NCBI RefSeq assembly: GCF_030540775.2 | Contig: NZ_CP141266.1 | Coordinates: forward strand, 917,001 to 981,000 | Direction: 5' to 3' | DNA from: Flavivirga abyssicola | GTDB taxonomy: Bacteria > Bacteroidota > Bacteroidia > Flavobacteriales > Flavobacteriaceae | DNA length: 64,000 nucleotides | Shown here: positions 15,660-30,793 of the stretch, in pieces | How the letters are laid out: every line of letters starts with the position of its first letter | Numbering within the stretch: the first letter of the stretch is position 1 | Position numbers and translations under genes: made by a program | The notes under the pieces: generated by a model | The model's input: the letters and a program-made list of their open reading frames with translations, nothing else | What the model was told of the DNA's origin: nothing | The model's database searches: none

Positions 15660-15719
15660 TAATCCCTCTTAGACAACTTTTAATCCTAGTCAATTAATTC
15701 TCGACTCCTACATTTGTAA
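15660..15719 (+). repeat. promoter-like element, copy 6 (diverged)
   Basis: AATCCCTCTTAGACAAC, TTTTAATCC and the end TACATTTGTAA, which is a full TAnnTTTG -7 box. No gene follows directly. Confidence 0.58.
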
Positions 15720-15969: not shown

Positions 15970-16029
15970 ACAAATCCCTCTCAGGCAATTTATTATCCTT
16001 TTAAGTTAAGTTTTCTTTCCGATTTTTGT
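15970..16029 (+). repeat. promoter-like element, copy 7
   Basis: CAAATCCCTCTCAGGCAA, TTATCCTTTTAAGTTAAG and the end GATTTTTGTG. It is placed about 30 bases before the ATG of the 206-residue protein, so it is probably its promoter. Confidence 0.65.
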
Positions 16030-16057: not shown

Positions 16058-16678
16058 ATGATACAACGCGTAGCTACACATAAAAAAACTAATAAGGAAC
16101 TCATGGTATTTGACGACATAGAATTCGAAAAGGAAAACCCTATTAAACAATACGGAAATGACTTTATTATAAAGCAAATGATTTTAAACGGGGTTACTCA
16201 AGAGGAAATGACTGGCAAAAAAGAGCTTACTACGACAAGTGATGAAATATTTAAAAGTGCCCATTTACTTTGGTTAAAACTAAAAAGTGAATTTCAAATA
16301 ATGAAAGTGCCAGAAAATTTAATGCAGCTTTTAAAAACGGATAAGAAAAAAGACCAGGAAAAATTACTCGATGGGTTCTTGCTTCCCCTAGAAACTTTAA
16401 CCTCTTTTATTTTTACCGCTTATCATGAATTTGGGTATACCCTAAGTCAATATATCTCTGAATTTTCTAAAAAAGAGTTTAAATCGGTGGCCAGAATTAT
16501 AGATTGTGGGGAGCACTGGCATTGTTTTTTTACAACACCTAAGGATTCTACAGGAGAAAAAACACAGCTTCACTACCTATCTAGTGCCTTTGGTATTGAA
16601 AGAGATGATTTGATTAAACAAATAAAATCGAATGAATCTTTATCTCATTTAGACAAGCTTCCTCTTATTACTTTATAA
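16058..16678 (+). CDS. unrecognised 206-residue cytoplasmic protein
   Basis: No signal peptide or membrane segment. The protein is charged and helical, with a C-terminal block ARIIDCGEHWHCFFTTPKDSTGEKTQLHYLSSAFG split by turns. The Cys/His/Trp cluster CGEHWHC could bind metal, which is speculative. The frame extends to a GTG at 16028, but that codon lies in the -7 region of promoter-like element copy 7. The ATG at 16058 is therefore preferred. It lies ahead of the cysteine-protein array and shares its type of promoter. I do not recognise the family. Confidence 0.6.
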   Translation: MIQRVATHKKTNKELMVFDDIEFEKENPIKQYGNDFIIKQMILNGVTQEEMTGKKELTTTSDEIFKSAHLLWLKLKSEFQIMKVPENLMQLLKTDKKKDQEKLLDGFLLPLETLTSFIFTAYHEFGYTLSQYISEFSKKEFKSVARIIDCGEHWHCFFTTPKDSTGEKTQLHYLSSAFGIERDDLIKQIKSNESLSHLDKLPLITL

Positions 16679-17180
16679 TAGTCTAGTAATTTATGACTCT
16701 AGTTTATGTTTATACTATAAAAGTTCTCAAATAAAGCTAGAGCAAAATCTTTTCTTAATTTTTTTAGATAGTGTTGAAAATAAGATTCTGCACTGTATCG
16801 GCAATCAGTATGATTCAACCAAATCAGTTAAAATATTAATACCAAAAAATAAGACTTCCTCAGCTCCTAAACTACTGAAACATTTATCCTGAATTTATGC
16901 TTGGCTTACTAAACTCTCTTGTACTAAACTCGTTTCAGTATTTCGATAGTTCACATTAGTTTAACTCACAATTTTGAGTGCGTTATATAAATATCTCAAA
17001 ATCGAATTTAATCAATAAATCCTTCTAATACAAGTAGTTATCCTTTTAAAATAATTTTTTTCACCTATAATTATGCTTATTTAAAACCTTTCATTTTTAG
17101 CCTCTTTTTGCAAAAAATGGAATACCTGTAAATCAGGATTAAGACATAAAACAAAATATTAACTGCTTAATACATTTTTT
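16679..17180. other. intergenic before the cysteine-protein array
   Basis: It contains promoter-like element copy 8 and, shortly before it, a small hairpin (ACTCACAATTTTGAGT at about 16964-16979) related to sequence found upstream of copies 7 and 9. The other ~350 bases show nothing I can support. Confidence 0.5.
17017..17079 (+). repeat. promoter-like element, copy 8 (diverged)
   Basis: AAATCCTTCTAATACAAG and AGTTATCCTTTTAAAATAA are conserved. The -7 end is degenerate. It lies about 100 bases before the first small cysteine protein. Confidence 0.55.
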
Positions 17181-17468
17181 ATGAAAACAACACTTTTTAA
17201 AATCGTTTTGCCGACCTTTACATTAATACTGGGCATCACAACTTCTCTTGCTTTTATCGCTGCTAAAAATGCTATAGATGAGGATACTGTAAATACTAAA
17301 GGGTATTATCATGGTTCTGACGGGTTTAACTGTATCTCTGTATCTCTGGTTGATTGTGATGATACCGTATTTAATCCAGTTTGTACTGCTACAATATCTG
17401 GTATGACTCATCAAATATATGGTAGAGATAAGTTACAATGTAACATTGTACTATTTAAGAGACCATAA
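17181..17468 (+). CDS. secreted small four-cysteine protein 1 (DUF6520-like)
   Basis: 95 residues with the family signal peptide (MKTTLFKIVLPTFTLILGITTSLAF). Cysteines are at 51, 59, 68 and 87, spacing C-x7-C-x8-C-x18-C, and the ending (NIVLF) is related to the LLY ending of the others. It is the most divergent of the seven paralogs and lacks the conserved 68-nt leader, having its own AT-rich upstream sequence after promoter-like element copy 8. Function unknown; an exported, probably disulfide-bonded small protein. Confidence 0.72.
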   Translation: MKTTLFKIVLPTFTLILGITTSLAFIAAKNAIDEDTVNTKGYYHGSDGFNCISVSLVDCDDTVFNPVCTATISGMTHQIYGRDKLQCNIVLFKRP

Positions 17469-17478
17469 TCTCTTTTGC

Positions 17479-17517
17479 AAAGGTTTAGAGAAAAGACACT
17501 TATTTTATACCTTTTTA
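17479..17517 (+). terminator. weak hairpin after cysteine protein 1
   Basis: AAAGGT and ACCTTTTTATT arms with a long loop sit where clear terminators are found after the sibling genes. Confidence 0.3.
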
Positions 17518-17663
17518 TTAATAAAGAAGATTCGACTTTAATACCTACTCTTTTTTATATCGAACTCACCTTAAATTTTTTACTTCCTGAAAAACCAGAA
17601 TAAAAGGTGTAAAGCATAAAATTAAATACCTAATACCAAACACCAAAATATTGAAAAATCAAA

Positions 17664-17731
17664 CTGTAGTCAGGGCTAAGGCCGAAAACCTGTAAAATAG
17701 AGTAGGTCATTAATTTTTAAATATCTTTATT
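17664..17731 (+). ncRNA. conserved 68-nt leader, copy 1
   Basis: Ends exactly at the ATG of cysteine protein 2. It keeps TCAGGGCTAAG, CCGAAAACCTGTAAAATAGA and GTAGGTCATTAA. One base of the proposed second stem differs (GGCC instead of GACC), which still pairs with GGTC through a G-U pair. Confidence 0.65.
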
Positions 17732-18037
17732 ATGAAATCTAAAATTTTTAAAATCGTTTTACCGGCTTTTGCTTTGATGTTAGCTATCACTGCATCACTT
17801 GCTTTTACACCTGCCAATGATCATGTGGTTGAGGATGGTATTTTAGTTAGTACAGCGTACTTCAGAAATGGTATTCAAAACCCTTGTTTACAGTTATTCC
17901 CTGTTTCCTGTCAACTTGAATTTGTAGAAGATCAGATTTGTGCAGTTAATATAAATGGCCTTGATCGCGCATTATTTTTTACTAAAATACAGGCTTTGCC
18001 CTCTTGTGTTACTTTGTTGTATAAATACCAAGAATAA
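17732..18037 (+). CDS. secreted small four-cysteine protein 2 (DUF6520-like)
   Basis: 101 residues. Signal peptide MKSKIFKIVLPAFALMLAIT + ASLAF, then an acidic linker and the core NPC...PVSCQLEFVEDQIC...PSCVTLLY with Cys at 52, 60, 70 and 92. It is preceded by the 68-nt leader but has no redox membrane gene of its own upstream; the sequence between 17520 and 17660 shows no clear remnant. A hairpin terminator follows. Confidence 0.78.
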   Translation: MKSKIFKIVLPAFALMLAITASLAFTPANDHVVEDGILVSTAYFRNGIQNPCLQLFPVSCQLEFVEDQICAVNINGLDRALFFTKIQALPSCVTLLYKYQE

Positions 18038-18054
18038 TCTTTTAAGTATAAGCG

Positions 18055-18084
18055 AAAAGGTGTCTGAAATGGTCACCTTTTCTG
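18055..18084 (+). terminator. terminator after cysteine protein 2
   Basis: AAAAGGTG pairs with CACCTTTT, followed by T-rich sequence. Confidence 0.7.
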
Positions 18085-18303
18085 TTTATTTATTGTCTGT
18101 TTATAGTTTGTGTTTATTTGTAAGACTCAGATTAAATAGTCTTTATAATATTTTTCTGGTCTCAAGGCTCGAGATATGAACACAAGAATATTAGGAGGCA
18201 TAAGTCTGCATTAACCCCGATAGCTTAGGAGCAGAATTAATCTGCCTACAAGTTCAACTTGCAATTTTGAGTGTTCTCGATGTGAAATCTAGAGAGATTT
18301 ACT

Positions 18304-18365
18304 AACAAATCCCTCCTAGACAAGTCTTTATCCATTTAAAATAAATTTTATCCTGCACCTTTGTA
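18304..18365 (+). repeat. promoter-like element, copy 9 (cassette A promoter)
   Basis: ACAAATCCCTCCTAGACAAG, TCTTTATCCATTTAAAATAA and the end CACCTTTGTAA. The mauE-like ATG follows about 30 bases later. The stretch 18304-20163 appears identical to 24140-25999. Confidence 0.7.
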
Positions 18366-18395
18366 AGGTTCTTAAACAATTCATTTGTTATCGTT

Positions 18396-18851
18396 ATGAA
18401 AATTAATAGTAAGTATAAAAACGCTCTGTTAGAAGTTATTTGTTTTCTCTATATACTCTTATTTGTATATGCGGCCATGAGTAAACTATTGGTCTTTGAT
18501 GAATTTAAGATCCAGATTGGACAATCTGCCATGTTAACCCCTTTTGCGAGTATTATTGCTCTGGTAATCCCTTCTCTTGAAATACTCATTGCCCTACTTT
18601 TACTTGTTCCCCGTTTTAAACTCTTGGGAATGTTTGCTGCCTTTAACCTCATGGTCATGTTTACGGCCTATATCTTTATTATTTTAAATTTTAGTAATGA
18701 TATCCCATGTTCTTGTGGCGGGGTACTCGAAAAAATGGGATGGACAGAGCATCTATTCTTTAACATCGCTTTTGTTATTCTGGCCTTTATCGGTATCCTT
18801 ATCCTAAACGAACAAAAAAATTATATCACCCCTAAATATGCCTCCTTATGA
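18396..18851 (+). CDS. MauE/DoxX-like redox membrane protein, copy A
   Basis: 151 residues with four predicted membrane helices (about 11-29, 50-70, 76-98, 120-138). The cysteine pair IPCSCGG (C105, C107) sits in the loop between helices 3 and 4, as in MauE/DoxD-type proteins linked to disulfide handling outside the cytoplasm. It overlaps the next gene by four bases (ATGA), so translation is coupled. Downstream in the same unit come the 370-residue protein and a small cysteine protein, which makes disulfide formation in that small protein a plausible job (inference). Its protein sequence is identical to copy B at 24232. Confidence 0.82.
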   Translation: MKINSKYKNALLEVICFLYILLFVYAAMSKLLVFDEFKIQIGQSAMLTPFASIIALVIPSLEILIALLLLVPRFKLLGMFAAFNLMVMFTAYIFIILNFSNDIPCSCGGVLEKMGWTEHLFFNIAFVILAFIGILILNEQKNYITPKYASL

Positions 18852-19960
18852 CTCTAAAAAAGCTTTATGGATCTCTTTTGCTCTGTACTATTGGTAGTAT
18901 TGGGCTTATGGCTCTTTTGTTTGTTTTTACTAAAAAAAGTATTACTAGGGATAATAGTTTTAAACGGGGGTTTCTTTATAATTCCCCTGAGAAAATCCAT
19001 GAACTGGATCTTGAATATAATGGGTATTATATTGCTGGCGCAGACCAGGAACAAATCTATCTGGGAAGCCCAGGATCGCCTTTATTTCTGACGGTTGTAG
19101 ACTCGGCCCTTCAAAGTAAAGAGGTGATTCACTTATCTATGGATCAGGATAGCCTCCCCATGCGTTCGCCTCAGCTTCGGGTGGTCCCACCTTACTTCTT
19201 TTTAACCGATGGGACCATTCCTTATATTCTTAGAGGGAATACTAAAGACTGGAAGGCACATTCCATGCTGGATGATCCCCTTTATTTTACCAATGCACAG
19301 CCTATAGACTCGGTCACTTTGGCGATTCGGGCTATTAGCAATAAAACGAATGAGTTTGTACTAGGGACTATAAAACTTGAAGACTCGGCTACTATGAGAC
19401 TCTCCCATGAGCTTTTACAAAAACAGGTGGATGGACTTTTTGATGTCGATGGCATGCTTCAATACAATCAACAGCGGAAGCAAATGGTGTATACTTACCG
19501 TTATCGTAATCAATATATCGTGGCTAATGATAGTCTCCAACTTCAATTTCTTGGTAAGACCATAGATACCATTAGCCAGGCACAAATACAAGTGGGTACT
19601 ATTGCTTCTAAAAACAAACATAAAATGGCCGCGCCTGCCCTTACCGTGAATAGAAACAGTGCCACCTCTGGAGATTATCTTTTTATAAACTCCAGAAGGC
19701 TGGGACAATCGGAGTCGCTTGTGCTATGGGAACAGTCTTCGCTTATCGATGTCTATAATATGGAGAAAGATCGCTATGAATTTAGCTTTTATGTGGAAGA
19801 TATAGATGAAAATAAACTAAAATCGTTCTTTGTGCTTCATGATAAATTTATAGGCCTTATTGGGAACCATATGGTTACTTATCAACTGGGTGATCATTTT
19901 AAACAGAAACCGCCGTCTACCATTATGGCACAAAAACAAAAGACGGATGACCAAAAATAA
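18848..19960 (+). CDS. membrane-anchored 370-residue protein of the cassette, copy A
   Basis: An N-terminal signal anchor (about 8-28, LLLCTIGSIGLMALLFVFT) is followed by a large extracytoplasmic domain rich in short beta strands. Phrases such as LTVVDSALQSKEVIHLSMDQD, YFFLTDGTIPYILRG and KFIGLIGNHMVTYQLGDHF recall the repeating blades of Bacteroidetes beta-propeller proteins of the BF3164 type. I see no catalytic motif and no cysteine beyond the anchor. Translationally coupled to the MauE-like gene. It ends 31 bases before the 68-nt leader of cysteine protein 3. Identical to copy B. Confidence 0.7.
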   Translation: MTLKKLYGSLLLCTIGSIGLMALLFVFTKKSITRDNSFKRGFLYNSPEKIHELDLEYNGYYIAGADQEQIYLGSPGSPLFLTVVDSALQSKEVIHLSMDQDSLPMRSPQLRVVPPYFFLTDGTIPYILRGNTKDWKAHSMLDDPLYFTNAQPIDSVTLAIRAISNKTNEFVLGTIKLEDSATMRLSHELLQKQVDGLFDVDGMLQYNQQRKQMVYTYRYRNQYIVANDSLQLQFLGKTIDTISQAQIQVGTIASKNKHKMAAPALTVNRNSATSGDYLFINSRRLGQSESLVLWEQSSLIDVYNMEKDRYEFSFYVEDIDENKLKSFFVLHDKFIGLIGNHMVTYQLGDHFKQKPPSTIMAQKQKTDDQK

Positions 19961-19991
19961 AAAAAACATACTGGAATACCAGAAAACAATA

Positions 19992-20059
19992 CTGCAGTCA
20001 GGGCTAAGACCGAAAACCTGTAAAATAGAGTAGGTCGTTAATTTTTAAATATCTATATT
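19992..20059 (+). ncRNA. conserved 68-nt leader, copy 2
   Basis: Intercistronic, ending at the ATG of cysteine protein 3. Potential pairings, counted from the leader start: CAGG (8-11) with CCTG (26-29), and GACC (17-20) with GGTC (42-45). The interleaved order gives an H-type pseudoknot. ACCT (25-28) could instead pair with AGGT (41-44). Confidence 0.65.
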
Positions 20060-20359
20060 ATGAAATCTAATTTTTTTAAAATCGTTTTACCGGCTTTTGC
20101 GCTTATGTTAGCAATCACAGCTTCGCTGGCTTTTACTTCTGCTAATAATGATGTGGCTGAGGAGGAGGATGCTGTTACTATAGCGTACTACAAGGATGGT
20201 ATTGGTAACCCTTGTGTAGAGGAAAGCCCTGTTTCATGTCAAGTTGAATTTGTAGAAGACAAGCCTTGCACAGTTTTAATAGATACTGTTGAGCGTCAAT
20301 TATTTCAGAATCCAACACAATCCTCTTGTACTGTTCTTTTGTATGAACTACAAGAATAA
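20060..20359 (+). CDS. secreted small four-cysteine protein 3 (DUF6520-like), cassette A
   Basis: 99 residues, Cys at 52, 60, 70 and 90. Residues 1-34, including the signal peptide, are identical to protein 6 of cassette B, and identity then stops abruptly at nucleotide 20163. The mature parts differ at many positions while keeping NPC, PVSCQVEFVEDKPC and SCTVLLYE. It is the last gene of the mauE-like unit and is followed by a terminator. It faces the convergent T9SS gene. Confidence 0.78.
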   Translation: MKSNFFKIVLPAFALMLAITASLAFTSANNDVAEEEDAVTIAYYKDGIGNPCVEESPVSCQVEFVEDKPCTVLIDTVERQLFQNPTQSSCTVLLYELQE

Positions 20360-20377
20360 TCTTTTCGAAGATTAGTG

Positions 20378-20410
20378 AAAAGGGTGTCTTTCTTTAGACA
20401 TCCTTTTTTT
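20378..20410 (+). terminator. terminator after cysteine protein 3
   Basis: AAAAGGGTGTCT and AGACATCCTTTT arms followed by a T run. Confidence 0.72.
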
Positions 20411-20534
20411 AGTGAATCTTATATTTTATAAATTTGCATAATAAAACTTAATAGTTGGCTATCTGCAACCCTTTCACTAAAAAGGTATCACGCGATACCA
20501 ACACCACAAACTGTACCACTGGATGTTCCTCTAC

Positions 20535-22124
20535 TTACTTTTTAATAACCTTTTTAGTTTCCATGCCTAAACTGGTATGTATCTGTAAAAAATAGAGTCC
20601 TTTTGATAAATGACTCACATTAATGCTTTCCTTTTTACTCTTGAATACCAACTGTCCTAAATTATTATATACGTTTATATATTTTAAATCTGGTACATTT
20701 TTAACATATAACGTATTTCTTACAGGATTGGGGTATACTCTTGCTTTTTCAGACCTATCTACATCTGTAACAGATAATGATTCTGATAGAGATACTGATA
20801 AATTATCAAATCGGAAAGCTACATTTGATGTTGTTGTAACTGTAAAGGCTGTAATATCTTTCCAGTTTAAAGCTACTGTGCCTCCCGGAGCTGCACCTCC
20901 CACTAAGGGCACCACTACAGGTGAGTTGCTACCGCTAGTTGGGGTAAAGGTGTAATCTCTGTCCCAACCATGCCCCTCTACAGGTAAAACAGAATAGACA
21001 TCAACCGCTTTATCAAAGGTAAAGGTAACCGAAGTACTACTACCTGTTTTAAGAACATTACCAGATGAACCTTTAAAACCGAGACCGTCATATACATAAG
21101 TATTTCTAGGATCCGTACTATCATCATTTTTAAATGTCACTGTAATACCATCTATAATCTCTGTGACATTGTTACCGTTATCTACTGCTGTTTCCCATCC
21201 AAATACAGTGGGGTCATCAAACCTATGGATTGATAGATTGTCAAACAAAAACTCTAAAGCTCCTGGTGCTGAAACCGTAAAGGATGTCACATCGATCCAG
21301 TTTAAAGCCACTGTTCCTGCCGCTCCACCTGTAAGTGGTACCACTTTTGGTAAATTATCACCTCCTGTCGGGGTAAAGGTTAAATTTTCATTCGTACCAA
21401 ACCCATCTCTTGGTATAATGGATTTGATGGTTACAGCCTGATCAAAGCTAAAGGTAACCGAAGTTGTTAATCCGCTTGATAATGCGACATTTCCAGTTGT
21501 TCCTCCAACCCCTGAACCATTATCATGTAAAGAAATATCTATATCTGAAACTGTAAGGGTAATGCCATCTATGGTTTCGGTGATCGTGTTCCCGTTATCT
21601 ACTGCATTCGTATCAAAATCAAATACACTGGGATCGTTGATGGCATATATTGATAGGTCATCAAATAAAAATTGTATACTTCCCATTGATGATACCGTAA
21701 ACGATGTTACGTTAACCCAGTTTAAAGCTACTGTTTCTTCTGGTGCTGCTCCACCTTCCAGTAATACCGTAACTGGTGAATTATCACCTCCTGTTGGAGT
21801 AAAGGTTAAATTTGTATTCGTACCATTTACATCTATTGGTATAATGGAATTAATGGCTACGCCACGATTAAAGCTAAAGGTCACTGAAGTCGTTGTTCCG
21901 CTTGATAATACCACATTTCCTGTAACACCTCCAAATCCTATACCGCTATCAAATAAAGAGATCCCGGCATCTGAAACGGTAAGTGTAATACCATTTATGG
22001 TCTCGGTGATATCGTTTCCGTTAACTTCTGCATTGGTGTCAAAATCAAATACTGTTTGAGTTTGAGCTCCAACTATATTAATAACAAGTGTTAGTATTGC
22101 AAAAAGGCATGTCGCTTTCTTCAT
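20535..22124 (-). CDS. T9SS-secreted repeat surface protein, copy A
   Basis: 529 residues. Signal peptide MKKATCLFAILTLVINIVGAQ, then three ~140-residue repeats (about 24-165, 166-305, 306-445). Each begins like FDFDTNA and ITETI-GITLTVSD and contains TSVTFSF, LTFTPTGGDNSP and a closing FLFDDLSI strand. A type A C-terminal sorting domain (about 460-529) has VYPNPVRNTLYV, NNLGQLVF, LSKGLYFLQI and ends KKVIKK. It is exported through T9SS and probably displayed on the cell surface; the repeats look like beta-sandwich adhesive or binding domains. Residues 1 to about 336 are identical to copy B, and the rest diverges. It is convergent with the cysteine protein gene. Confidence 0.82.
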   Translation of the reverse strand: MKKATCLFAILTLVINIVGAQTQTVFDFDTNAEVNGNDITETINGITLTVSDAGISLFDSGIGFGGVTGNVVLSSGTTTSVTFSFNRGVAINSIIPIDVNGTNTNLTFTPTGGDNSPVTVLLEGGAAPEETVALNWVNVTSFTVSSMGSIQFLFDDLSIYAINDPSVFDFDTNAVDNGNTITETIDGITLTVSDIDISLHDNGSGVGGTTGNVALSSGLTTSVTFSFDQAVTIKSIIPRDGFGTNENLTFTPTGGDNLPKVVPLTGGAAGTVALNWIDVTSFTVSAPGALEFLFDNLSIHRFDDPTVFGWETAVDNGNNVTEIIDGITVTFKNDDSTDPRNTYVYDGLGFKGSSGNVLKTGSSTSVTFTFDKAVDVYSVLPVEGHGWDRDYTFTPTSGSNSPVVVPLVGGAAPGGTVALNWKDITAFTVTTTSNVAFRFDNLSVSLSESLSVTDVDRSEKARVYPNPVRNTLYVKNVPDLKYINVYNNLGQLVFKSKKESINVSHLSKGLYFLQIHTSLGMETKKVIKK

Positions 22125-22732
22125 AATTTAGTTAGTTTAAGAGTGCTGCTATTAATCTAAACTATTCAAAATTTGAACTTTTTTAATTACTAGGTTCTTT
22201 TGTTATAACAATAAAAAAACAAAACGGGTAGTATAATTTAAAAGGTATTTTATTCTAACTTTTCTAATTTACGATTTATACTTATTTGCAAAGGCTATAT
22301 CTAACTGTTTTTATGACGCCTTAATTTATCGATAAACAAGGGGAAAAGACACTAGATATAAGGCTTAACATTAAAAACCTAAACTCTTTATTTACAACTT
22401 ATTGAATTTTTTTATGAAAATATTTTTTTTTCAAGGATGGAGATTTTTTTGAACCACTATTTTATAATAGGCTTTAACCCTCTTTATGTATTGGAGCTTC
22501 TTGATGAAGTTTTCAGATGCAATAAAATACGGTATTTTATAAGTTTTTGCTTAGCACCGCTTAGGTGATAGCAAAGCGCTATACTTTGCAGTAGCTGGAT
22601 GCTGTAATCGTTTTTCAAATGCATTAAGTGGGTTTAATATAAGGTACTACCAGATACCAAAAACATTTATCCTAAATTTAACCCAGAAGGTTCTGTAAAG
22701 GCAAAAATTGGTACTCAAAATGATGTTTTACC
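22125..22732. other. intergenic upstream of T9SS gene copy A
   Basis: It contains the GGGT-GTATAAT motif at 22220-22243. About 350 bases (22390-22740) are collinear with 28320-28680, including GCTTAGCACCGCTTAGGTGA and GCTATACTTTGCAGTAGCTG. No gene seen. Confidence 0.6.
22220..22243 (-). promoter_or_regulatory. conserved motif upstream of T9SS gene, copy 1
   Basis: On the plus strand AAAACGGGTAGTATAATTTA. Related copies lie at 28149, 41621 and 46811, each upstream of a leftward gene. It may be a promoter or operator. Confidence 0.45.
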
Positions 22733-22794
22733 AACAAATCCTTCTTATGCAAGTGTTTATCCTTTTTAAATAAATTTTATTCCGCAACTTTGTA
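22733..22794 (+). repeat. promoter-like element, copy 10
   Basis: AACAAATCCTTCTTATGCAAG, TTTATCCTTTTTAAATAA and the end CAACTTTGTAA. It heads a decayed cassette. Confidence 0.68.
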
Positions 22795-22828
22795 ATATTA
22801 ATATACAACTTGTTATTTATTAATATTC

Positions 22829-23022
22829 ATGGGAAGTACAAAAACGTCTATTGGATTTTATGTGTTTCCTGTTCATACTCTTATTTGTATACGTTTCATT
22901 GAGTATTATATCTTTAATGACACTTTTCTATAGGGCTTATTAGTAGTCATATTGTTACTAATTAGAGTTTTAAGCAAGAACCGTCATCTCTCATAATGGT
23001 TCAAGACTTAAAATCCAGTAAC
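22829..23022 (+). pseudogene. fused remnant of mauE-like and 370-residue genes
   Basis: 22829-22905 aligns with the start of the mauE-like gene (AAGTACAAAAACG, ATACTCTTATTTGTATACG). From about 22930 the sequence aligns instead with the end of the 370-residue gene (ATAGGGCTTATTAGTAGTCA, then GAACCGTCATCTCTCATAATGG). The middle of both genes, about 1.4 kb, is gone and the frame is broken. The remnant lies between a promoter-like element and a leader, exactly where the intact genes lie in cassettes A and B. Confidence 0.65.
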
Positions 23023-23064
23023 AAAAAACAAAACTTAAAAAAATTGACATTCCGATAAATAATA

Positions 23065-23132
23065 CTGCAGTCAGGACTAAGACCGAAAACCTGTAAAATA
23101 GAGTAGGTCATTAATCTTTAAATATCTATATC
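23065..23132 (+). ncRNA. conserved 68-nt leader, copy 3
   Basis: Differs from copy 2 at only a few positions (CAGGACTAAGACC at the start, TAATCTTTAAATATC near the end). All four proposed pairing segments are kept. Confidence 0.65.
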
Positions 23133-23435
23133 ATGAAATCTAAAATTTTTAAAACCGTTTTTCCTGCTTTTGCATTTATGCTAGCTATCACGGCTTCACT
23201 TGCTTTTACGTCTGCTAATAATGATGTGGTTGAGGAAGAACATACTAAAATCACTAAAGCCTACGTCAAGGCTGGTATTGGTCAGCCTTGTCAACTTGTA
23301 ACTCCTGTTTGCTGTCAAGTTGAATTCGCAGAAGTACTTTGCACTATTAATATAAGTGGTATTGACCGCCAATTATTTAAGACCAGAACACAGACCTCTT
23401 GTAATGGTTTATTGTACGAATACGAAGAGCATTAA
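23133..23435 (+). CDS. secreted small cysteine protein 4 (DUF6520-like)
   Basis: 100 residues with five cysteines (53, 60, 61, 70, 90), the motif QPC...PVCCQVEFAEVLC and the LLYEYEEH ending. Signal peptide as in the siblings (MKSKIFKTVFPAFAFMLAIT). It belongs to a cassette whose membrane genes have decayed, but leader, promoter-like element and terminator are all preserved, so it is probably still expressed. Confidence 0.76.
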   Translation: MKSKIFKTVFPAFAFMLAITASLAFTSANNDVVEEEHTKITKAYVKAGIGQPCQLVTPVCCQVEFAEVLCTINISGIDRQLFKTRTQTSCNGLLYEYEEH

Positions 23436-23451
23436 TCTTTCAAATATTAAC

Positions 23452-23482
23452 AAAAAGGTGCTTTGGACAGGCATCTTTTTTT
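23452..23482 (+). terminator. terminator after cysteine protein 4
   Basis: AAAAAGGTGC pairs with GCATCTTTTT, then a T run. Confidence 0.68.
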
Positions 23483-23530
23483 AGTGCAACCCATGTTTTT
23501 CAAGCTTGTGAGCTAAAACTTCATGTTAAA

Positions 23531-23593
23531 AATAAATCCCTCCTAAACAAGTATTTATCCATTAAAAATAAACCTTATCTCGTACCTTAAATT
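23531..23593 (+). repeat. promoter-like element, copy 11
   Basis: AAATCCCTCCTAAACAAG, TATTTATCCATTAAAAATAA. The -7 end reads ACCTTAAAT and is degenerate. Confidence 0.6.
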
Positions 23594-23594
23594 T

Positions 23595-23668
23595 ATGAAA
23601 ATTCATAGTTAAGCATAAAAGCGTTTATTAGAATTTATGTGTTTCCTGTTTATACTTTTATTTCTAAA
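23595..23668 (+). pseudogene. short mauE-like remnant with in-frame stop
   Basis: ATGAAAATTCATAGTTAAG is the mauE-like start with an in-frame TAA after five codons. It continues GCATAAAAGCG and TTATACTTTTATTTCT, then runs directly into the 68-nt leader. The whole 370-residue gene is absent here. Confidence 0.65.
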
Positions 23669-23670
23669 TA

Positions 23671-23738
23671 CTGCAGTCAGGGAGAAGACCGAAAACCTGT
23701 AAAATAGAGTAGGTCATTAATCTTTAAATATCTTTGTT
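23671..23738 (+). ncRNA. conserved 68-nt leader, copy 4
   Basis: Carries CAGGGAGAAGACC instead of CAGGGCTAAGACC; the pairing segments are unchanged. It begins only six bases after the mauE-like remnant. Confidence 0.65.
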
Positions 23739-24044
23739 ATGAAATCTAAAATTTTTAAAACCGTTTTTCCTGCTTTTGCTTTAATATTAGCGATCTCTGC
23801 TTCACTTGCTTTTTCACCTGTTAATAATGATATGGCTGAAGATGCTACTAAAATTACTACAGCTTACTACAAAAATGGTATTGGTATACCTTGCCCATTG
23901 GTAACTCCTGTTTTATGTCAACTTGAATTCGTAGAGAACCAGGCTTGCACAATTCAAGTATCAGGTACTGATCGTCAATTATTTTTGATTCAAACACAGA
24001 ACTCTTGTGTTACGCTTTTATATAAATGTCAATTGCCTGAATAG
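23739..24044 (+). CDS. secreted small cysteine protein 5 (DUF6520-like)
   Basis: 101 residues, Cys at 52, 60, 70, 90 and an extra one at 97. Motifs IPC, PVLCQLEFVENQAC, DRQLF and SCVTLLYKC. Same signal peptide type. It lies between the two complete cassettes, behind a promoter-like element and a stub of the mauE-like gene. Confidence 0.76.
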   Translation: MKSKIFKTVFPAFALILAISASLAFSPVNNDMAEDATKITTAYYKNGIGIPCPLVTPVLCQLEFVENQACTIQVSGTDRQLFLIQTQNSCVTLLYKCQLPE

Positions 24045-24062
24045 TTTTTCAAATATATCAGT

Positions 24063-24092
24063 AAAAAGGTGCCTGTCTTGGGCACCTTTTTT
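24063..24092 (+). terminator. terminator after cysteine protein 5
   Basis: AAAAAGGTGCC and GGCACCTTTTTT form a strong stem with a T run. Confidence 0.8.
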
Positions 24093-24139
24093 AGTTAAAT
24101 TCTTGCCTTATAAGTTTATACACAAAACTTCATGCCAAA

Positions 24140-24201
24140 AACAAATCCCTCCTAGACAAGTCTTTATCCATTTAAAATAAATTTTATCCTGCACCTTTGT
24201 A
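24140..24201 (+). repeat. promoter-like element, copy 12 (cassette B promoter)
   Basis: Identical to copy 9. It marks the left edge of the long identical block 24140-25999. Confidence 0.7.
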
Positions 24202-24231
24202 AGGTTCTTAAACAATTCATTTGTTATCGTT

Positions 24232-24687
24232 ATGAAAATTAATAGTAAGTATAAAAACGCTCTGTTAGAAGTTATTTGTTTTCTCTATATACTCTTATTT
24301 GTATATGCGGCCATGAGTAAACTATTGGTCTTTGATGAATTTAAGATCCAGATTGGACAATCTGCCATGTTAACCCCTTTTGCGAGTATTATTGCTCTGG
24401 TAATCCCTTCTCTTGAAATACTCATTGCCCTACTTTTACTTGTTCCCCGTTTTAAACTCTTGGGAATGTTTGCTGCCTTTAACCTCATGGTCATGTTTAC
24501 GGCCTATATCTTTATTATTTTAAATTTTAGTAATGATATCCCATGTTCTTGTGGCGGGGTACTCGAAAAAATGGGATGGACAGAGCATCTATTCTTTAAC
24601 ATCGCTTTTGTTATTCTGGCCTTTATCGGTATCCTTATCCTAAACGAACAAAAAAATTATATCACCCCTAAATATGCCTCCTTATGA
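24232..24687 (+). CDS. MauE/DoxX-like redox membrane protein, copy B
   Basis: Identical in protein sequence to copy A (four helices, C105/C107 in PCSCGG). The overlapping frames on both strands also translate identically, so the nucleotides appear unchanged too. It overlaps the next gene by four bases. Same proposed role: supplying or shuffling disulfides for the small cysteine proteins. Confidence 0.82.
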   Translation: MKINSKYKNALLEVICFLYILLFVYAAMSKLLVFDEFKIQIGQSAMLTPFASIIALVIPSLEILIALLLLVPRFKLLGMFAAFNLMVMFTAYIFIILNFSNDIPCSCGGVLEKMGWTEHLFFNIAFVILAFIGILILNEQKNYITPKYASL

Positions 24688-25796
24688 CTCTAAAAAAGCT
24701 TTATGGATCTCTTTTGCTCTGTACTATTGGTAGTATTGGGCTTATGGCTCTTTTGTTTGTTTTTACTAAAAAAAGTATTACTAGGGATAATAGTTTTAAA
24801 CGGGGGTTTCTTTATAATTCCCCTGAGAAAATCCATGAACTGGATCTTGAATATAATGGGTATTATATTGCTGGCGCAGACCAGGAACAAATCTATCTGG
24901 GAAGCCCAGGATCGCCTTTATTTCTGACGGTTGTAGACTCGGCCCTTCAAAGTAAAGAGGTGATTCACTTATCTATGGATCAGGATAGCCTCCCCATGCG
25001 TTCGCCTCAGCTTCGGGTGGTCCCACCTTACTTCTTTTTAACCGATGGGACCATTCCTTATATTCTTAGAGGGAATACTAAAGACTGGAAGGCACATTCC
25101 ATGCTGGATGATCCCCTTTATTTTACCAATGCACAGCCTATAGACTCGGTCACTTTGGCGATTCGGGCTATTAGCAATAAAACGAATGAGTTTGTACTAG
25201 GGACTATAAAACTTGAAGACTCGGCTACTATGAGACTCTCCCATGAGCTTTTACAAAAACAGGTGGATGGACTTTTTGATGTCGATGGCATGCTTCAATA
25301 CAATCAACAGCGGAAGCAAATGGTGTATACTTACCGTTATCGTAATCAATATATCGTGGCTAATGATAGTCTCCAACTTCAATTTCTTGGTAAGACCATA
25401 GATACCATTAGCCAGGCACAAATACAAGTGGGTACTATTGCTTCTAAAAACAAACATAAAATGGCCGCGCCTGCCCTTACCGTGAATAGAAACAGTGCCA
25501 CCTCTGGAGATTATCTTTTTATAAACTCCAGAAGGCTGGGACAATCGGAGTCGCTTGTGCTATGGGAACAGTCTTCGCTTATCGATGTCTATAATATGGA
25601 GAAAGATCGCTATGAATTTAGCTTTTATGTGGAAGATATAGATGAAAATAAACTAAAATCGTTCTTTGTGCTTCATGATAAATTTATAGGCCTTATTGGG
25701 AACCATATGGTTACTTATCAACTGGGTGATCATTTTAAACAGAAACCGCCGTCTACCATTATGGCACAAAAACAAAAGACGGATGACCAAAAATAA
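24684..25796 (+). CDS. membrane-anchored 370-residue protein of the cassette, copy B
   Basis: Identical to copy A over all 370 residues: N-terminal anchor about 8-28, then a beta-strand-rich extracytoplasmic domain, possibly propeller-like. Perfect identity next to strongly diverged neighbours points to recent duplication or gene conversion of this block. Function unknown. Confidence 0.7.
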   Translation: MTLKKLYGSLLLCTIGSIGLMALLFVFTKKSITRDNSFKRGFLYNSPEKIHELDLEYNGYYIAGADQEQIYLGSPGSPLFLTVVDSALQSKEVIHLSMDQDSLPMRSPQLRVVPPYFFLTDGTIPYILRGNTKDWKAHSMLDDPLYFTNAQPIDSVTLAIRAISNKTNEFVLGTIKLEDSATMRLSHELLQKQVDGLFDVDGMLQYNQQRKQMVYTYRYRNQYIVANDSLQLQFLGKTIDTISQAQIQVGTIASKNKHKMAAPALTVNRNSATSGDYLFINSRRLGQSESLVLWEQSSLIDVYNMEKDRYEFSFYVEDIDENKLKSFFVLHDKFIGLIGNHMVTYQLGDHFKQKPPSTIMAQKQKTDDQK

Positions 25797-25827
25797 AAAA
25801 AACATACTGGAATACCAGAAAACAATA

Positions 25828-25895
25828 CTGCAGTCAGGGCTAAGACCGAAAACCTGTAAAATAGAGTAGGTCGTTAATTTTTAAATATCTATATT
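25828..25895 (+). ncRNA. conserved 68-nt leader, copy 5
   Basis: Identical to copy 2 and part of the identical block. It ends at the ATG of cysteine protein 6. Confidence 0.65.
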
Positions 25896-26207
25896 ATGAA
25901 ATCTAATTTTTTTAAAATCGTTTTACCGGCTTTTGCGCTTATGTTAGCAATCACAGCTTCGCTGGCTTTTACTTCTGCTAATAATGATGTGGCTGAGGAC
26001 ACTACTATTGAAATTACTACAGCGTTCTACAAAAATGGTCTTGGCAACCCTTGTGTACTGGTAAATCCTGTTTCATGTCAAGTTGAATTTGTAGAAGACA
26101 AGCCTTGCACAATTTCACTTCAAGGTGTTGATCGTCAATTATTTATGACTGAAACACAAACCTCTTGTACTGTTCTTTTATATGAATGGGAGGGCCCACA
26201 AGAATAA
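25896..26207 (+). CDS. secreted small four-cysteine protein 6 (DUF6520-like), cassette B
   Basis: 103 residues, Cys at 53, 61, 71 and 91. Shares residues 1-34 exactly with protein 3, then diverges (DTTIEITTAFYKNGLG versus EEDAVTIAYYKDGIG), keeping PVSCQVEFVEDKPC and SCTVLLYE. The divergence begins at nucleotide 26000 and continues through the terminator into the end of the T9SS gene. Confidence 0.78.
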   Translation: MKSNFFKIVLPAFALMLAITASLAFTSANNDVAEDTTIEITTAFYKNGLGNPCVLVNPVSCQVEFVEDKPCTISLQGVDRQLFMTETQTSCTVLLYEWEGPQE

Positions 26208-26223
26208 TCTTTTCAAAGATTAG

Positions 26224-26253
26224 AAAAGGGTGCCCTTTTTTGGGCACTTTTTT
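26224..26253 (+). terminator. terminator after cysteine protein 6
   Basis: AAAAGGGTGCCC pairs with GGGCACTTTTTT. Confidence 0.78.
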
Positions 26254-26377
26254 AATGAATTCATGTTTCATAAGTTTGCTAAAACTTTATGATTGAGTCA
26301 ACTAGCAGCAAGTTAATCCATTCACTAAAAATTTCTACTGTAAGCAATTTTTGAAACGTTCGATCCCACGACGATGA

Positions 26378-27967
26378 CTATTTCTTGATAACTTTTTTAG
26401 TTTCTGTACCTAGACGGGTATGTATCTGTAAAAAATAGAGTCCCTTTGATAAATTGCCCATATCAATACTTTGCTTTTTACTCTCTAATACCAATTGCCC
26501 TAATTTATTATACATTTGAATCGATTTTAAATCCGATATATTTTTGATATGTAGCATATTTTCTACCGGATTAGGGTATACTCTTGCTTTTTCAGACCTA
26601 TTCACTTCTTCAACAGATAATGATGTTGATAGAGATACTGACAAATTATCAAACCGAAAATGTGTATTAATTGGTGATGTTATCGTAAAGGCTGTAATAC
26701 CTGTCCAACTTAAGGATACGGTATTTCCTGGAACAACACCTTCCACTAAAGATACCACTACTGGGGAATTATTCCCCCCAGTAGGAATAAAGGTATAATT
26801 TATATTAGCTTCAGCCGCTTCTAATGGAAAAACAGAATAAATATCAACCGTTTTATCAAAGGTAAAGGTCACCGAAGTACTACTACCTGTACCAAGAATA
26901 TTATCAAAAATACCTTTCCAACCAAGGCCTTCTGTCACAAAAGTATCACCAGCACGTGTACTATCATCATTTTTAAATGTCACTGTAATACCATCTATAA
27001 TCTCTGTGACATTGTTACCGTTATCTACTGCTGTTTCCCATCCAAATACAGTGGGGTCATCAAACCTATGGATTGATAGATTGTCAAACAAAAACTCTAA
27101 AGCTCCTGGTGCTGAAACCGTAAAGGATGTCACATCGATCCAGTTTAAAGCCACTGTTCCTGCCGCTCCACCTGTAAGTGGTACCACTTTTGGTAAATTA
27201 TCACCTCCTGTCGGGGTAAAGGTTAAATTTTCATTCGTACCAAACCCATCTCTTGGTATAATGGATTTGATGGTTACAGCCTGATCAAAGCTAAAGGTAA
27301 CCGAAGTTGTTAATCCGCTTGATAATGCGACATTTCCAGTTGTTCCTCCAACCCCTGAACCATTATCATGTAAAGAAATATCTATATCTGAAACTGTAAG
27401 GGTAATGCCATCTATGGTTTCGGTGATCGTGTTCCCGTTATCTACTGCATTCGTATCAAAATCAAATACACTGGGATCGTTGATGGCATATATTGATAGG
27501 TCATCAAATAAAAATTGTATACTTCCCATTGATGATACCGTAAACGATGTTACGTTAACCCAGTTTAAAGCTACTGTTTCTTCTGGTGCTGCTCCACCTT
27601 CCAGTAATACCGTAACTGGTGAATTATCACCTCCTGTTGGAGTAAAGGTTAAATTTGTATTCGTACCATTTACATCTATTGGTATAATGGAATTAATGGC
27701 TACGCCACGATTAAAGCTAAAGGTCACTGAAGTCGTTGTTCCGCTTGATAATACCACATTTCCTGTAACACCTCCAAATCCTATACCGCTATCAAATAAA
27801 GAGATCCCGGCATCTGAAACGGTAAGTGTAATACCATTTATGGTCTCGGTGATATCGTTTCCGTTAACTTCTGCATTGGTGTCAAAATCAAATACTGTTT
27901 GAGTTTGAGCTCCAACTATATTAATAACAAGTGTTAGTATTGCAAAAAGGCATGTCGCTTTCTTCAT
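26378..27967 (-). CDS. T9SS-secreted repeat surface protein, copy B
   Basis: 529 residues, same architecture as copy A: signal peptide, three ~140-residue repeats, T9SS sorting domain (VYPNPVENMLHI, NKLGQLVLES, LSKGLYFLQI, KKVIKK). It is identical to copy A up to about residue 336 (TFKNDDST). The third repeat and the sorting domain then differ substantially. Equal total length suggests selection on architecture. Convergent with cysteine protein 6. Confidence 0.82.
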   Translation of the reverse strand: MKKATCLFAILTLVINIVGAQTQTVFDFDTNAEVNGNDITETINGITLTVSDAGISLFDSGIGFGGVTGNVVLSSGTTTSVTFSFNRGVAINSIIPIDVNGTNTNLTFTPTGGDNSPVTVLLEGGAAPEETVALNWVNVTSFTVSSMGSIQFLFDDLSIYAINDPSVFDFDTNAVDNGNTITETIDGITLTVSDIDISLHDNGSGVGGTTGNVALSSGLTTSVTFSFDQAVTIKSIIPRDGFGTNENLTFTPTGGDNLPKVVPLTGGAAGTVALNWIDVTSFTVSAPGALEFLFDNLSIHRFDDPTVFGWETAVDNGNNVTEIIDGITVTFKNDDSTRAGDTFVTEGLGWKGIFDNILGTGSSTSVTFTFDKTVDIYSVFPLEAAEANINYTFIPTGGNNSPVVVSLVEGVVPGNTVSLSWTGITAFTITSPINTHFRFDNLSVSLSTSLSVEEVNRSEKARVYPNPVENMLHIKNISDLKSIQMYNKLGQLVLESKKQSIDMGNLSKGLYFLQIHTRLGTETKKVIKK

Positions 27968-28670
27968 AATTTAGTTAGTTTAATTTTTGGTTAGTTTTGA
28001 ACGATCTAAGTTTTCCTAAATGATGAGGAATAGTATTTTTAATTAGCAAAATTCTTGTTGTAGTTGTTGTTGAAAACACCTTCATTTTAACGAAATTATT
28101 CATTTTAGGTTACTTTAGACTGTTCTTGTTAACACAACATTTCCAAAAAAACGGGTGGTATAATTTAAAAGATATTTTATTATAACTTTTCTACTTTACG
28201 GTTTACACTTATTTTAAGGGCTATATCTGACTGTTTTTATGATATCTTAATCTTATCGATAAACAAGGAAAAAGATACTAGATATAAGGTTTAAGATTAA
28301 AACCTAAATTCTTTATTTACATCTTATTGAATTGTTTTTATGAAAATATTTTTTTTCAAGGAAAAAGATTTTTTTGAACCACTATTTTATAATAGGTTTT
28401 AAATCACTTTATGCATTGGAACTTCTTGATGAAGTTTTCAGATACAGTAAAGTATGATATTTTATAAGTTCTTGCTTAGCACCGCTTAGGTGAAACTTAA
28501 AAATGTAGCAAAGCGCTATACTTTGCAGTAGCTGGATGCTGTAATCGTTTTTCCAATGCATTAAGTGGGTTTAATATAAGGTACACTACCAGATACCAAA
28601 AACATTTATCCTAAATTTAACCCAGAAGGTTCTGTACAGACAAATTTGGTGCTCAAAATGCAGTTTTACT
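27968..28670. other. intergenic upstream of T9SS gene copy B
   Basis: Apart from the conserved motif at 28149-28170, it holds the ~350-bp block collinear with 22390-22740 and no gene. Identity with copy A's upstream sequence ends at 27983, just past the start codon. Confidence 0.6.
28149..28170 (-). promoter_or_regulatory. conserved motif upstream of T9SS gene, copy 2
   Basis: AAACGGGTGGTATAATTTAA on the plus strand, about 180 bases upstream of the start. Confidence 0.45.
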
Positions 28671-28732
28671 AACAAATCCTTCTTATGCAAGTGTTTATCC
28701 TTTTTAAATAAATTTTATTCCGCACCTTTGTA
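28671..28732 (+). repeat. promoter-like element, copy 13
   Basis: AACAAATCCTTCTTATGCAAG, TTTATCCTTTTTAAATAA and the end CACCTTTGTAA. Nearly identical to copy 10. Confidence 0.68.
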
Positions 28733-28774
28733 ATATTAATAAACAACTTGAACGTGAATCTTGAATAAGAAAAT

Positions 28775-28938
28775 TTATGTCAGTTAGAGTGATTTTTGCA
28801 AAAAATCGTATCGAAAACCTGTCTGCCGACCTTTAGGCAGGCAAGTAAATTTTCGCCCAAAAAAGCTTCTCGATACAAAATTCTTCCAGAATTTCACTCG
28901 AAGTGACATCTTGAACTCTTAAGCAAGATTCACATTAT
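28775..28938. repeat. dispersed repeat inserted in a decayed cassette
   Basis: CTGTCTGCCGACCTTTAGGCAGGCAAG forms a small stem (28820-28846), followed by GCTTCTCGATAC, TTCTTCCAGAATTTCACTCG and AAGATTCACATTA, matching about 5650-5720. Compared with the sibling at 22795-22829 it separates the promoter-like element from the mauE-like remnant, so it looks like an insertion. Confidence 0.55.
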
Positions 28939-29100
28939 TTATTAATATTCATAGGAAGTATTAAACATCCATTAGGTTTCATCTAATTCTTATTTATAAT
29001 CATAGCATTATTTATAAGCTGAGAGGTCACTTCAAAGGGAATAAAGCCTTCCGTTTTAACGGCTCAAATACAAAAACTCTAGAATACTAGACTTTAGAAC
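28939..29100 (+). pseudogene. heavily decayed mauE-like cassette remnant
   Basis: ATTAATATTCATAGGAAGTA, then CATCCATTAGG and TTCTTATTTATAAT can be followed against the remnant at 22829. The original ATG has become ATA and stops interrupt the frame. Beyond about 29000 similarity is lost. Confidence 0.5.
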
Positions 29101-29128
29101 ACACACACTAGCATTCCGATAAATAATA

Positions 29129-29197
29129 CTGCAGTCAGGACTAAGACCGAAAACCTGTAAAATAGAGTAGGTCATTAATTTTTTAAATATCTATATC
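29129..29197 (+). ncRNA. conserved leader, copy 6 (69 nt)
   Basis: As copy 3, with one extra T in the AT-rich part near the ATG; pairing segments unchanged. Confidence 0.63.
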
Positions 29198-29506
29198 ATG
29201 AAATCTAAAATTTTTAAAACCGTTTTTCCTGCTTTTGCACTTATGTTAGCTATCATGGCTTCACTTGCTTTAACTTCTGCTAATAATGATGTGGCTGAGA
29301 AAGAAGAGGATGCCACTAAAATCACTATAGCACTCTACAAAAACGGTATTGGTCAACCTTGTGTAGAGGTACAGGATGTTTGTTGTCAAGAAGAAGTCGC
29401 AGAAGAGCTTTGCACAATTAACGTAAATGGTATTGACCGCCAACTATTCAAAGCTCGAACACATACCTCTTGTAATATTCTTTTGTATAAATGGCAAGGG
29501 TATTAG
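29198..29506 (+). CDS. secreted small cysteine protein 7 (DUF6520-like)
   Basis: 102 residues, Cys at 55, 62, 63, 72 and 92. Motifs QPC, VCCQEEVAEELC, GIDRQLFKARTHTSC and LLYKWQGY. It resembles protein 4 most closely (double cysteine, same remnant upstream), so proteins 4 and 7 descend from the same ancestral position in the duplicated block. Signal peptide as in the siblings. Its terminator is split by a repeat. Confidence 0.76.
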   Translation: MKSKIFKTVFPAFALMLAIMASLALTSANNDVAEKEEDATKITIALYKNGIGQPCVEVQDVCCQEEVAEELCTINVNGIDRQLFKARTHTSCNILLYKWQGY

Positions 29507-30772: not shown

Positions 30773-30793
30773 AAGTTCGGTTATTATTGTTTT

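Follow-up and report, generated by a model that had tools for sequence, protein, structure and literature searches.

What does a bacterium gain from seven small, cysteine-rich proteins with export signals, encoded almost side by side? The question is raised by a 64,000-nucleotide stretch of Flavivirga abyssicola DNA (NZ_CP141266.1, positions 917,001 to 981,000; here the window, whose own coordinates are used throughout). In it, seven genes of the DUF6520 family (PF20130), named S1 to S7, share the + strand with two copies of a gene pair encoding a MauE-family membrane protein (M) and a 370-residue protein (P). The facing strand encodes, among others, a SusC-like TonB-dependent transporter and a SusD-like protein (together SusCD), a TlpA-type protein and a peptidase. 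Comparison with other genomes points to a module under regulation whose product would be an exported, disulfide-bonded peptide, most likely taken up again by the cell; to this reading, taken as a whole, we give about an even chance.

Seven genes with a conserved leader and a variable core

S is composed of a conserved leader and a diversified core. All seven S open reading frames (ORFs) begin with a signal-peptide-like leader and match the pattern C-x7-C-x8/9-C-x18-21-C, as a preliminary description of this DNA had stated, and all seven exceed the Pfam gathering score of DUF6520 (33.2-46.3 bits against 25.4). They are located at 17181-17468 (S1, 34.5 bits), 17732-18037 (S2), 20060-20359 (S3, with cysteines at residues 52, 60, 70 and 90), 23133-23435 (S4), 23739-24044 (S5), 25896-26207 (S6) and 29198-29506 (S7), with one additional cysteine each in S4, S5 and S7. 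A search of the complete 4.68-Mb genome listed ten DUF6520 matches, of which the seven above the cut-off are precisely S1 to S7. The initial methionine and the four cysteines are the only invariant positions in an alignment of 65 S proteins picked by hand from loci with P. Pairwise ratios of nonsynonymous to synonymous change (dN/dS) among the window genes are 0.5-1.2 in the cores, with the peak in the pairs S2-S3 and S3-S6, and 0.1-0.5 in the leaders, one pair of which is identical. A tandem array of six S genes behind a single fused M:P gene is also found in an uncultured Flavobacteriaceae genome (locus L092, 10685-13585). No solved structure could be convincingly related to S by sequence (best E 2.2).

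The conserved leader, the fast core and the tandem arrays of the window and L092 could also characterise a narrow-spectrum antibacterial peptide. M and P would then mature it, SusCD would be the receptor type exploited, and the peptidase or TlpA protein would protect the producer by destroying re-entering peptide. It is in keeping with such a role that the RNA discussed below also stands before a short cysteine-rich ORF whose leader is of the GG type and which has VKOR and TlpA genes nearby. Nevertheless, no toxin domain is matched in Pfam by any of the seven window S proteins, and no constant extra immunity gene appears among the neighbour families clustered in the 47 regions defined below. 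An antibacterial function seems unlikely to us.

M, P and S form a recurrent unit

Two complete M-P-S units are present, as had been described. M, with its PCSCGG motif, is encoded at 18396-18851 (PF07291 E 1.3e-29; 103.5 bits against a gathering score of 27) and, as an identical protein, at 24232-24687; P is encoded at 18848-19960 and again, also identical, at 24684-25796. All four genes are on the + strand and the M and P ORFs overlap by four bases. The CxC motif occurs in all 43 M proteins compared and, judging from hydropathy of the window protein, is located between the last two hydrophobic segments. The closest relatives of M among the matches listed are Flavivirga proteins.

Of 199 genomes sampled from the family, the own genome among them, 28 contained DUF6520 (E 1e-3) and 194 contained MauE-family genes, so that the presence of MauE alone means little and its place matters. 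Two sets of loci were compared: 46 regions covering the 47 DUF6520 matches outside the own genome plus one around a MauE match (the 47-region set), and the best 80 of at least 587 relatives obtained with an M profile (the 80-locus set), which leans towards P-bearing kin. For 136 of the 144 S genes recognised (52, the window's seven included, plus 92), an M gene lies within 2.5 kb on the same strand. The gene orders seen are M-P-S, fused M:P-S, M-S-P and M-S, and 63 of the 116 rows of the M tree are fused M:P proteins. Moreover, in a sample of 395 genomes of the phylum, DUF6520 (E 1e-5) was found in 21, P (1e-6) in 29 and both in 16; P is present in 16 of the 21 S-bearing genomes as against 13 of 374 without S. 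Three of the five genomes with S and without P hold M-S loci, and the other two look spurious. The association supposed in the preliminary description is thus borne out, since the three families are strongly linked in their occurrence and fusion of M with P is frequent. Beyond this, the cysteine count of S goes with P, although not without exceptions.

P is probably a propeller

The window P has a single N-terminal hydrophobic segment, which contains its sole cysteine (residue 13). Since this segment is retained in fused M:P proteins, P is likely to lie in the periplasm, beside the CxC loop. The window P matches no Pfam or NCBIfam family, and DUF5128 (PF17170) was matched neither by it nor by its relatives (47 proteins scanned, 46 with a P part). 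Its profile can be aligned over the C-terminal half with four DUF5128-type propeller proteins (hhalign 98.4%, E 9.7e-15, 165 columns). This match suggests that P is a distant relative of the DUF5128-type six-bladed propellers and is probably a propeller itself; no internal repeats were found in it. Four of the 29 genome matches to the P profile are weak, and the three inspected (loci L207, L209 and L210) all hold proteins matching DUF5128, one of them just under the cut-off. In L207 (1260-3921, genome G416), from another family of the phylum, an AraC-like ORF (named by eye), a small cysteine-rich ORF, a DUF5128-type propeller and a MauE protein with the motif PCGCGG follow one another.

The likeness to peptide-plus-propeller pairs, remarked on in the preliminary description, has thereby gained substance, both through the distant kinship of P and through the neighbourhood of a MauE protein and a cysteine-rich ORF in L207. 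The loci differ in that the window P lacks a Pfam match, as do the small ORFs of L207 and L209. The combination of peptide, propeller and MauE may be older than DUF6520. DUF5128-type loci may also be likened to those of NVEALA peptides. No match to P was found in 72,556 plasmid records, which speaks against spread by plasmids, and no solved structure is a convincing relative of M:P by sequence (best E 0.033). One fused copy (L129, 5204-6737) reads as two ORFs of 222 and 245 residues and looks interrupted.

A second cysteine pair usually accompanies P

Where M is near, four cysteines are not seen in S without P; yet P occurs without four cysteines. Among S proteins with M near and P adjoining, 117 of 118 have at least four cysteines in the mature part, whereas all 18 with M but without P have exactly two (paralogues and near kin being counted singly). 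In the phylum sample, a set of 23 loci that partly overlaps the earlier ones, the corresponding figures are 18 of 18 with P (at least four) and 3 of 3 with M only (two); two matches without M were set aside, one of which (L190) has four cysteines. On the M tree, supported branches force five changes to account for the P-less state. The cysteine number goes with P in all five independent pairs; among 200 random pairings, a single one yielded four of five. Both kinds can be found in one locus: L132, from Muricauda, holds an M-S unit with two cysteines and an M-P-S unit with six. In L132 and L165, units stand back to back, one of them with a six-cysteine S adjoining P.

The single pair of P-less S proteins aligns with Cys2 and Cys3. 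By this alignment, we infer that S consists of a small inner loop (Cys2-Cys3) and an outer bond (Cys1-Cys4). An assignment from spacing alone was dropped. The single pair is spaced by 6 or 7 in 20 of 21 cases, Cys1-Cys2 by 5 or 6 in 86 of 113, Cys2-Cys3 by 7 or 8 in 104 of 113 and Cys3-Cys4 by 9 to 25. Adjacent and fused genes, the CxC motif and correlated changes that occurred repeatedly together make it probable that M oxidises S and that P allows the outer bond to form.

Several observations pull the other way. The spacings just given overlap and do not by themselves settle the identity of the pair. P has no conserved cysteine (no alignment column has one in more than 8 of 25 sequences); a redox role through cysteines of its own is accordingly rejected and any part that P takes in oxidation would be indirect. 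The independent transitions number only five, so that the sign test cannot pass 0.0625, the value obtained. Furthermore, an S of L062 (4005-4283) has two cysteines beside P, as do three small ORFs of the Pedobacter locus L140, missed by the hidden Markov model of S; L212 (two cysteines) and a small ORF in L211 (three) also lie by P. These four loci rule out a strict equivalence of P with four cysteines, and a one-way dependence is what we retain. Lastly, eight S proteins were set aside for want of M within 2.5 kb; one has no cysteine, two have two, and five carry four to six. Of these five, window S7 and one copy each from L062 and L092 belong to arrays whose P is more distant, the L082 protein is a weak match, and the remaining one had P but no M match.

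A SusCD operon faces S

From 30,044 to 39,357, the facing strand of the window carries DUF4397, TlpA, DsbD-N, FG-GAP, SusD and SusC genes. SusD (34513-35916, - strand; PF14322, PF07980) and SusC (36004-39357, - strand; PF07715 E 1e-20) lie side by side as a SusCD pair. The TlpA/redoxin-type gene, of clustered neighbour family c7, is at 30794-32125 (- strand; PF08534 E 5e-20), next to a gene for a DsbD N-terminal-domain protein (32227-32703, - strand; PF11412 E 4.5e-7). Beyond SusC, the region 42130-47365 holds an M16-type peptidase gene (42130-43635, - strand; PF05193, M16_C, E 3.7e-11) and FecR-like and ECF-sigma-like genes, the last two named by eye.

This arrangement recurs. Among units with enough sequence, counted once per locus and strand, 71 of 75 (80-locus set) and 36 of 39 (47-region set) have a SusD gene convergent with S, and a peptidase or TlpA occupies the facing position in 66 of 75 and 38 of 39. 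SusC lies within the available sequence of 70 of 75 and of 7 of 39, the second figure being low because those regions are short. With 30 SusD genes spread over the 4.68 Mb of the own genome, a few per cent of SusD-S neighbours would be expected here by chance. The enzyme slot is filled by four unrelated types, S9, M16, Met-zincin and TlpA, which are four ways of dismantling or opening a disulfide peptide. On the strength of this synteny, the chance that S is taken up again through the facing SusCD falls, in our estimate, slightly short of even.

Two other explanations start from the same gene order. S might be a secreted scavenger, a carrier of metal, haem or another small ligand that SusCD retakes when loaded and that is then cleaved for release. 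A TonB-dependent SusCD and a peptidase facing a small exported protein would suit this, but the cysteines come in pairs and together with an oxidase, and the 65 aligned sequences offer no invariant residue other than Met1 and cysteine, which makes a scavenger distinctly improbable. Alternatively, S could be an inhibitor or partner of the neighbouring peptidase. It is small, cysteine-paired and fast-evolving, and in 46 S9-type loci the distances between S cores correlate best with those between S9 proteins (r 0.86; partial 0.42 given M, P and SusC). The facing enzyme, however, varies by locus over the four types listed, which one inhibitor family is unlikely to cover; we consider this explanation improbable.

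Uptake through SusCD, the reading we prefer to these two, has difficulties of its own. With M, P and S9 taken into account, SusC and SusD explain little more of the S-core distances (partial 0.10 and 0.03), and P, too, contributes little (0.11). The correlation with S9 may stem from similar fast rates and is therefore a hint only. Genes that converge may be inherited together with no action of one on the other, and the M16 gene of the window matches a single domain of its type.

The preliminary description had proposed that the small proteins are displayed at the surface, and it correctly placed a type IX secretion system (T9SS) surface protein opposite each complete unit. A T9SS-sorted protein (20535-22124, - strand; PF18962 E 6e-13) faces S3, and a paralogue 88% identical to it (26378-27967, - strand) faces S6. 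Display of S on the cell in company with this protein is opposed by the lack of conservation: 1 of the 80 loci has a clear relative, four more have a match confined to the neighbourhood of the sorting domain, and the 47 regions have none. In addition, none of the seven window S proteins matches a T9SS sorting domain in Pfam. T9SS display is accordingly rejected as highly improbable: where make, oxidise and display had been proposed, oxidation is supported by the genomic evidence, and SusD is what faces S instead of a display partner. A third T9SS-type paralogue (39788-41392), 52% identical and with a sorting domain, adjoins SusC.

A pseudoknot RNA precedes S

Six of the seven window genes (S2-S7) are preceded by a pseudoknot leader of the DUF805b type, for example at 17664-17719 (S2), 19992-20047 (S3) and 25828-25883 (S6), all on the + strand; the S1 leader is degenerate and gives no match. 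The Rfam DUF805b RNA (RF02914) exceeds its gathering score directly before S in 8 of 20 S loci. The S leaders share the core of this RNA and its position before the start codon. The window leaders are unlike it in that stem 2 deviates from the consensus on both sides, and the two that were listed stay under the gathering score (21.6 and 19.0 bits against 35.6). The core GAAMACC is found within 125 bases upstream of 118 of the 144 S genes.

In an alignment of 98 of the 107 distinct leaders (nine were excluded by hand), the pseudoknot pairing of RF02914 is kept by compensatory change. In stem 2, the helix responsible for the pseudoknot, 93.4% of cells are paired, and each of the four pairs shows two-sided changes (78 cells in total). 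For stem 1 the figure is 79.3%, lowered in part by misalignment of its 5' side between leaders with loops of unequal length. Over the whole structure 86.4% of cells are paired, against 76.9% in shuffles and at most 39.5% in slid versions. None of 500 shuffles reached the observed paired cells, two-sided cells or covariation score; two measures counting pairs and types were reached by 17 and 64 of them. Folding without the pseudoknot was tried and rejected, five of six leaders doing no better than shuffles; the degenerate S1 leader did better (z -2.3). A new model built on these leaders gave 31 matches in 20 genomes, of which 24 precede a recognised S and six are those of S2-S7 in the own genome; it matches all 12 S-bearing genomes and, weakly, 2 of 8 genomes without S.

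The same RNA family is present in a rather different setting in L168 (822-5511, genome G133), which holds two DUF805b RNAs (47.4 and 43.9 bits). One lies 20 nt before a cysteine-rich ORF of 64 residues with a GG-type leader (TIGR04149, 21.3 bits, cut-off 25), the other before a gap without a listed ORF, followed by TlpA. A C39/VKOR/thioredoxin protein is encoded upstream, and the locus has two TlpA proteins. L168 resembles the window module in its family of membrane oxidase, short cysteine-rich ORF, TlpA proteins and RNA, and differs in having VKOR in place of MauE, a GG-type leader and no SusD or SusC match in 6.5 kb. Judged by its gene content it is a putative parallel disulfide-peptide locus, and one RNA family would then go with two unlike loci of this kind. 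The RNA is not exclusive to peptides, since it also precedes other ORFs in L169 and L170.

A palindrome that varies from locus to locus also lies before S: ACTGCAGT in the window (19991-19998, 23064-23071 and 25827-25834), and ACTGTACAGT, ATACTGCGCAGTAT and ATTGTTGCAACAAT elsewhere. Its centre is 17-21 nt upstream of the GAAMACC core in 67 of 118 leaders, with a mean half-length of 4.67 against 2.79 in shuffles. It could be an operator or a self-pairing RNA.

AraC-type boxes and the left-hand genes

The box ATCCYTnnnRGRYAASTnnTWATCC has 13 sites in the window (at most one mismatch), all on one strand, and none in 100 shuffles. Two further sites occur elsewhere in the genome, for which no convincing gene was reached, and the reversed pattern has none. 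Sites lie ahead of the genes for DUF7793 and AraC, of one for an outer-membrane barrel and of units with M or S. The leftmost (8320-8344, + strand) is upstream of two DUF7793 genes (8724-9104, PF25056 E 1.1e-46; 9284-9667, E 4.5e-42; both + strand) and of a gene for an AraC-family regulator of 329 residues (9758-10747, + strand; PF12833 E 3.6e-19). The next (10843-10867, + strand) lies ahead of an outer-membrane beta-barrel gene (OMP_b-brl_3; 11278-13941, + strand; PF14905 E 3.9e-20). One box (17019-17043, + strand) stands before S1, where there is no M-P, and another (18309-18333, + strand) belongs to the first complete unit.

In other genomes, allowing up to four mismatches, a box precedes M in 28 of 57 loci with an AraC-type gene (reversed control, 1 of 57), in none of 11 loci with a response regulator or TPR kinase and in 8 of 57 with neither seen. 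It is likely, from these sequence data, that the AraC protein binds the boxes.

Between 14030 and 15998 there are five boxes, one clear ORF behind them and several repeats of 140-270 bp. Four of the boxes (starting at 14618, 14828, 15132 and 15662; 14618-15686, + strand) have no clear ORF behind them and are perhaps decayed units. The fifth (15974-15998, + strand) precedes an ORF of 206-216 residues without a Pfam family (16028 or 16058 to 16678). Old units may have decayed in this region, or new ones may arise from it. Further left, a gene for an 811-residue protein with aminotransferase class I/II and GNAT domains (5729-8164, - strand; PF00155, PF13480) belongs to a neighbour family that recurs in 19 of the 47 regions.

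Duplication and decay of units

A block of 1,860 bp comprising box, M, P and the start of S6 (24140-25999, + strand) is 100% identical to 18304-20163. The identity spans M, P and the S leader and breaks inside the S gene. Past the block, differences amount to 15-62 per 100 alignment columns in the remainder of S, in the gap and in the 3' part of the facing gene, and downstream of about 21,161 both copies are again identical as far as counted (22,061). A divergent cassette (20164-21161 against about 26000-27004), consisting of most of S and the 3' part of the facing gene, is therefore flanked by identical arms, as if it had arisen from gene conversion or cassette exchange. Identical kilobase repeats can also be produced by assembly errors; the assembly here is one contig.

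Intact M-P is kept in two of the seven units (S3 and S6). Remnants are seen ahead of S4 (box, M start and P end, 22733-23131, + strand, with the RNA leader at 23065-23120), S5 (box and M start, 23531-23726, + strand, leader 23671-23726) and S7 (28671-29184, + strand: a box at 28671-28746, a stretch resembling the M remnant of the S4 unit at 28935-29004, leader 29129-29184). S1 is preceded by a lone box, and neither box nor M/P remnant was found ahead of S2. The array can be read as a whole box-M-P-S unit that was duplicated, M-P then being lost in most copies; the two remaining pairs presumably serve all seven S genes. With five of seven S genes lacking an intact M-P of their own, and the array sitting inside a larger regulated locus, the term self-contained used in the preliminary description needs revision. 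The M/P remnants, RNA leaders, AraC boxes and flanking AraC/DUF7793 and TlpA-SusD-SusC genes are features beyond that description.

A proposed pathway

These observations can be arranged as a sequence of events. An AraC-type regulator, whose gene and paired ATCC boxes are present in the window, would bind the boxes and switch on the units. The DUF805b-type pseudoknot found in the S leader would set the translation of S. By its signal, S would cross the inner membrane by a Sec-type route, and M, with its CxC presumably on the periplasmic side, would form the inner disulfide Cys2-Cys3; both of these steps are well supported. Next to M, the propeller-like P, devoid of conserved cysteines, would position S for the outer Cys1-Cys4 bond, as phylogeny and gene fusion suggest; M loci without P keep the single pair. 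Mature S might then act outside the cell as a variable ligand and be recaptured by the facing SusCD, to be dismantled by the neighbouring peptidase or opened by the TlpA protein.

As to purpose, we hold with less confidence than the chemistry, and only as a possibility on the unlikely side, that S is an autocrine or kin-specific peptide signal. More speculative still is the full proposal of a class of peptide communication, in which a hypervariable DUF6520 peptide is oxidised by MauE, receives a second disulfide licensed by P, is gated by a pseudoknot and is sensed through import by a cognate SusCD before being opened or digested.

Relation to known systems and significance

A role in disulfide formation has been speculated for MauE in the maturation of methylamine dehydrogenase (PMC7794033). 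The window M shares with that protein the family score (PF07291) and the CxC motif and is unlike it in its partner, DUF6520, and in its frequent fusion to P. A Pfam scan of neighbouring window genes, which did not extend to the remainder of the genome, turned up no methylamine dehydrogenase (mau) genes. A MauE homologue with a small precursor has also been proposed as modifier in candidate clusters of ribosomally synthesised and post-translationally modified peptides in Streptomyces (decRiPPter, PMC7794033). Here too a MauE-family protein accompanies a small precursor; set against those clusters as outlined in that source, the present loci differ by their Sec-type leader, their occurrence in Bacteroidota, P, the RNA leader and the facing SusCD operon. 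One open literature library yielded no papers on DUF6520, DUF805b or NVEALA, nothing relevant by title among the papers listed on MauE in Bacteroidetes or Flavobacteria, and nothing joining SusC, TlpA and MauE, nor SusCD with a peptide pheromone; within the limits of this search, no description of the complete module was found.

The analysis brings DUF6520, the P family, the DUF805b RNA and MauE, an enzyme whose function had been guessed, together into one testable module. In the proposed chemistry, M would be needed for both bonds and P for the outer bond only. The scheme also proposes a cargo for some SusCD-peptidase operons of the Bacteroidota. To our knowledge, few peptide signals have been recorded in this phylum. 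If the proposal is true, a function would be assigned in one stroke to DUF6520, to the P family, to the DUF805b RNA and to a set of orphan SusCD-peptidase operons, and, if the recapture step holds, the module would amount to a peptide ligand-receptor system in Bacteroidota.

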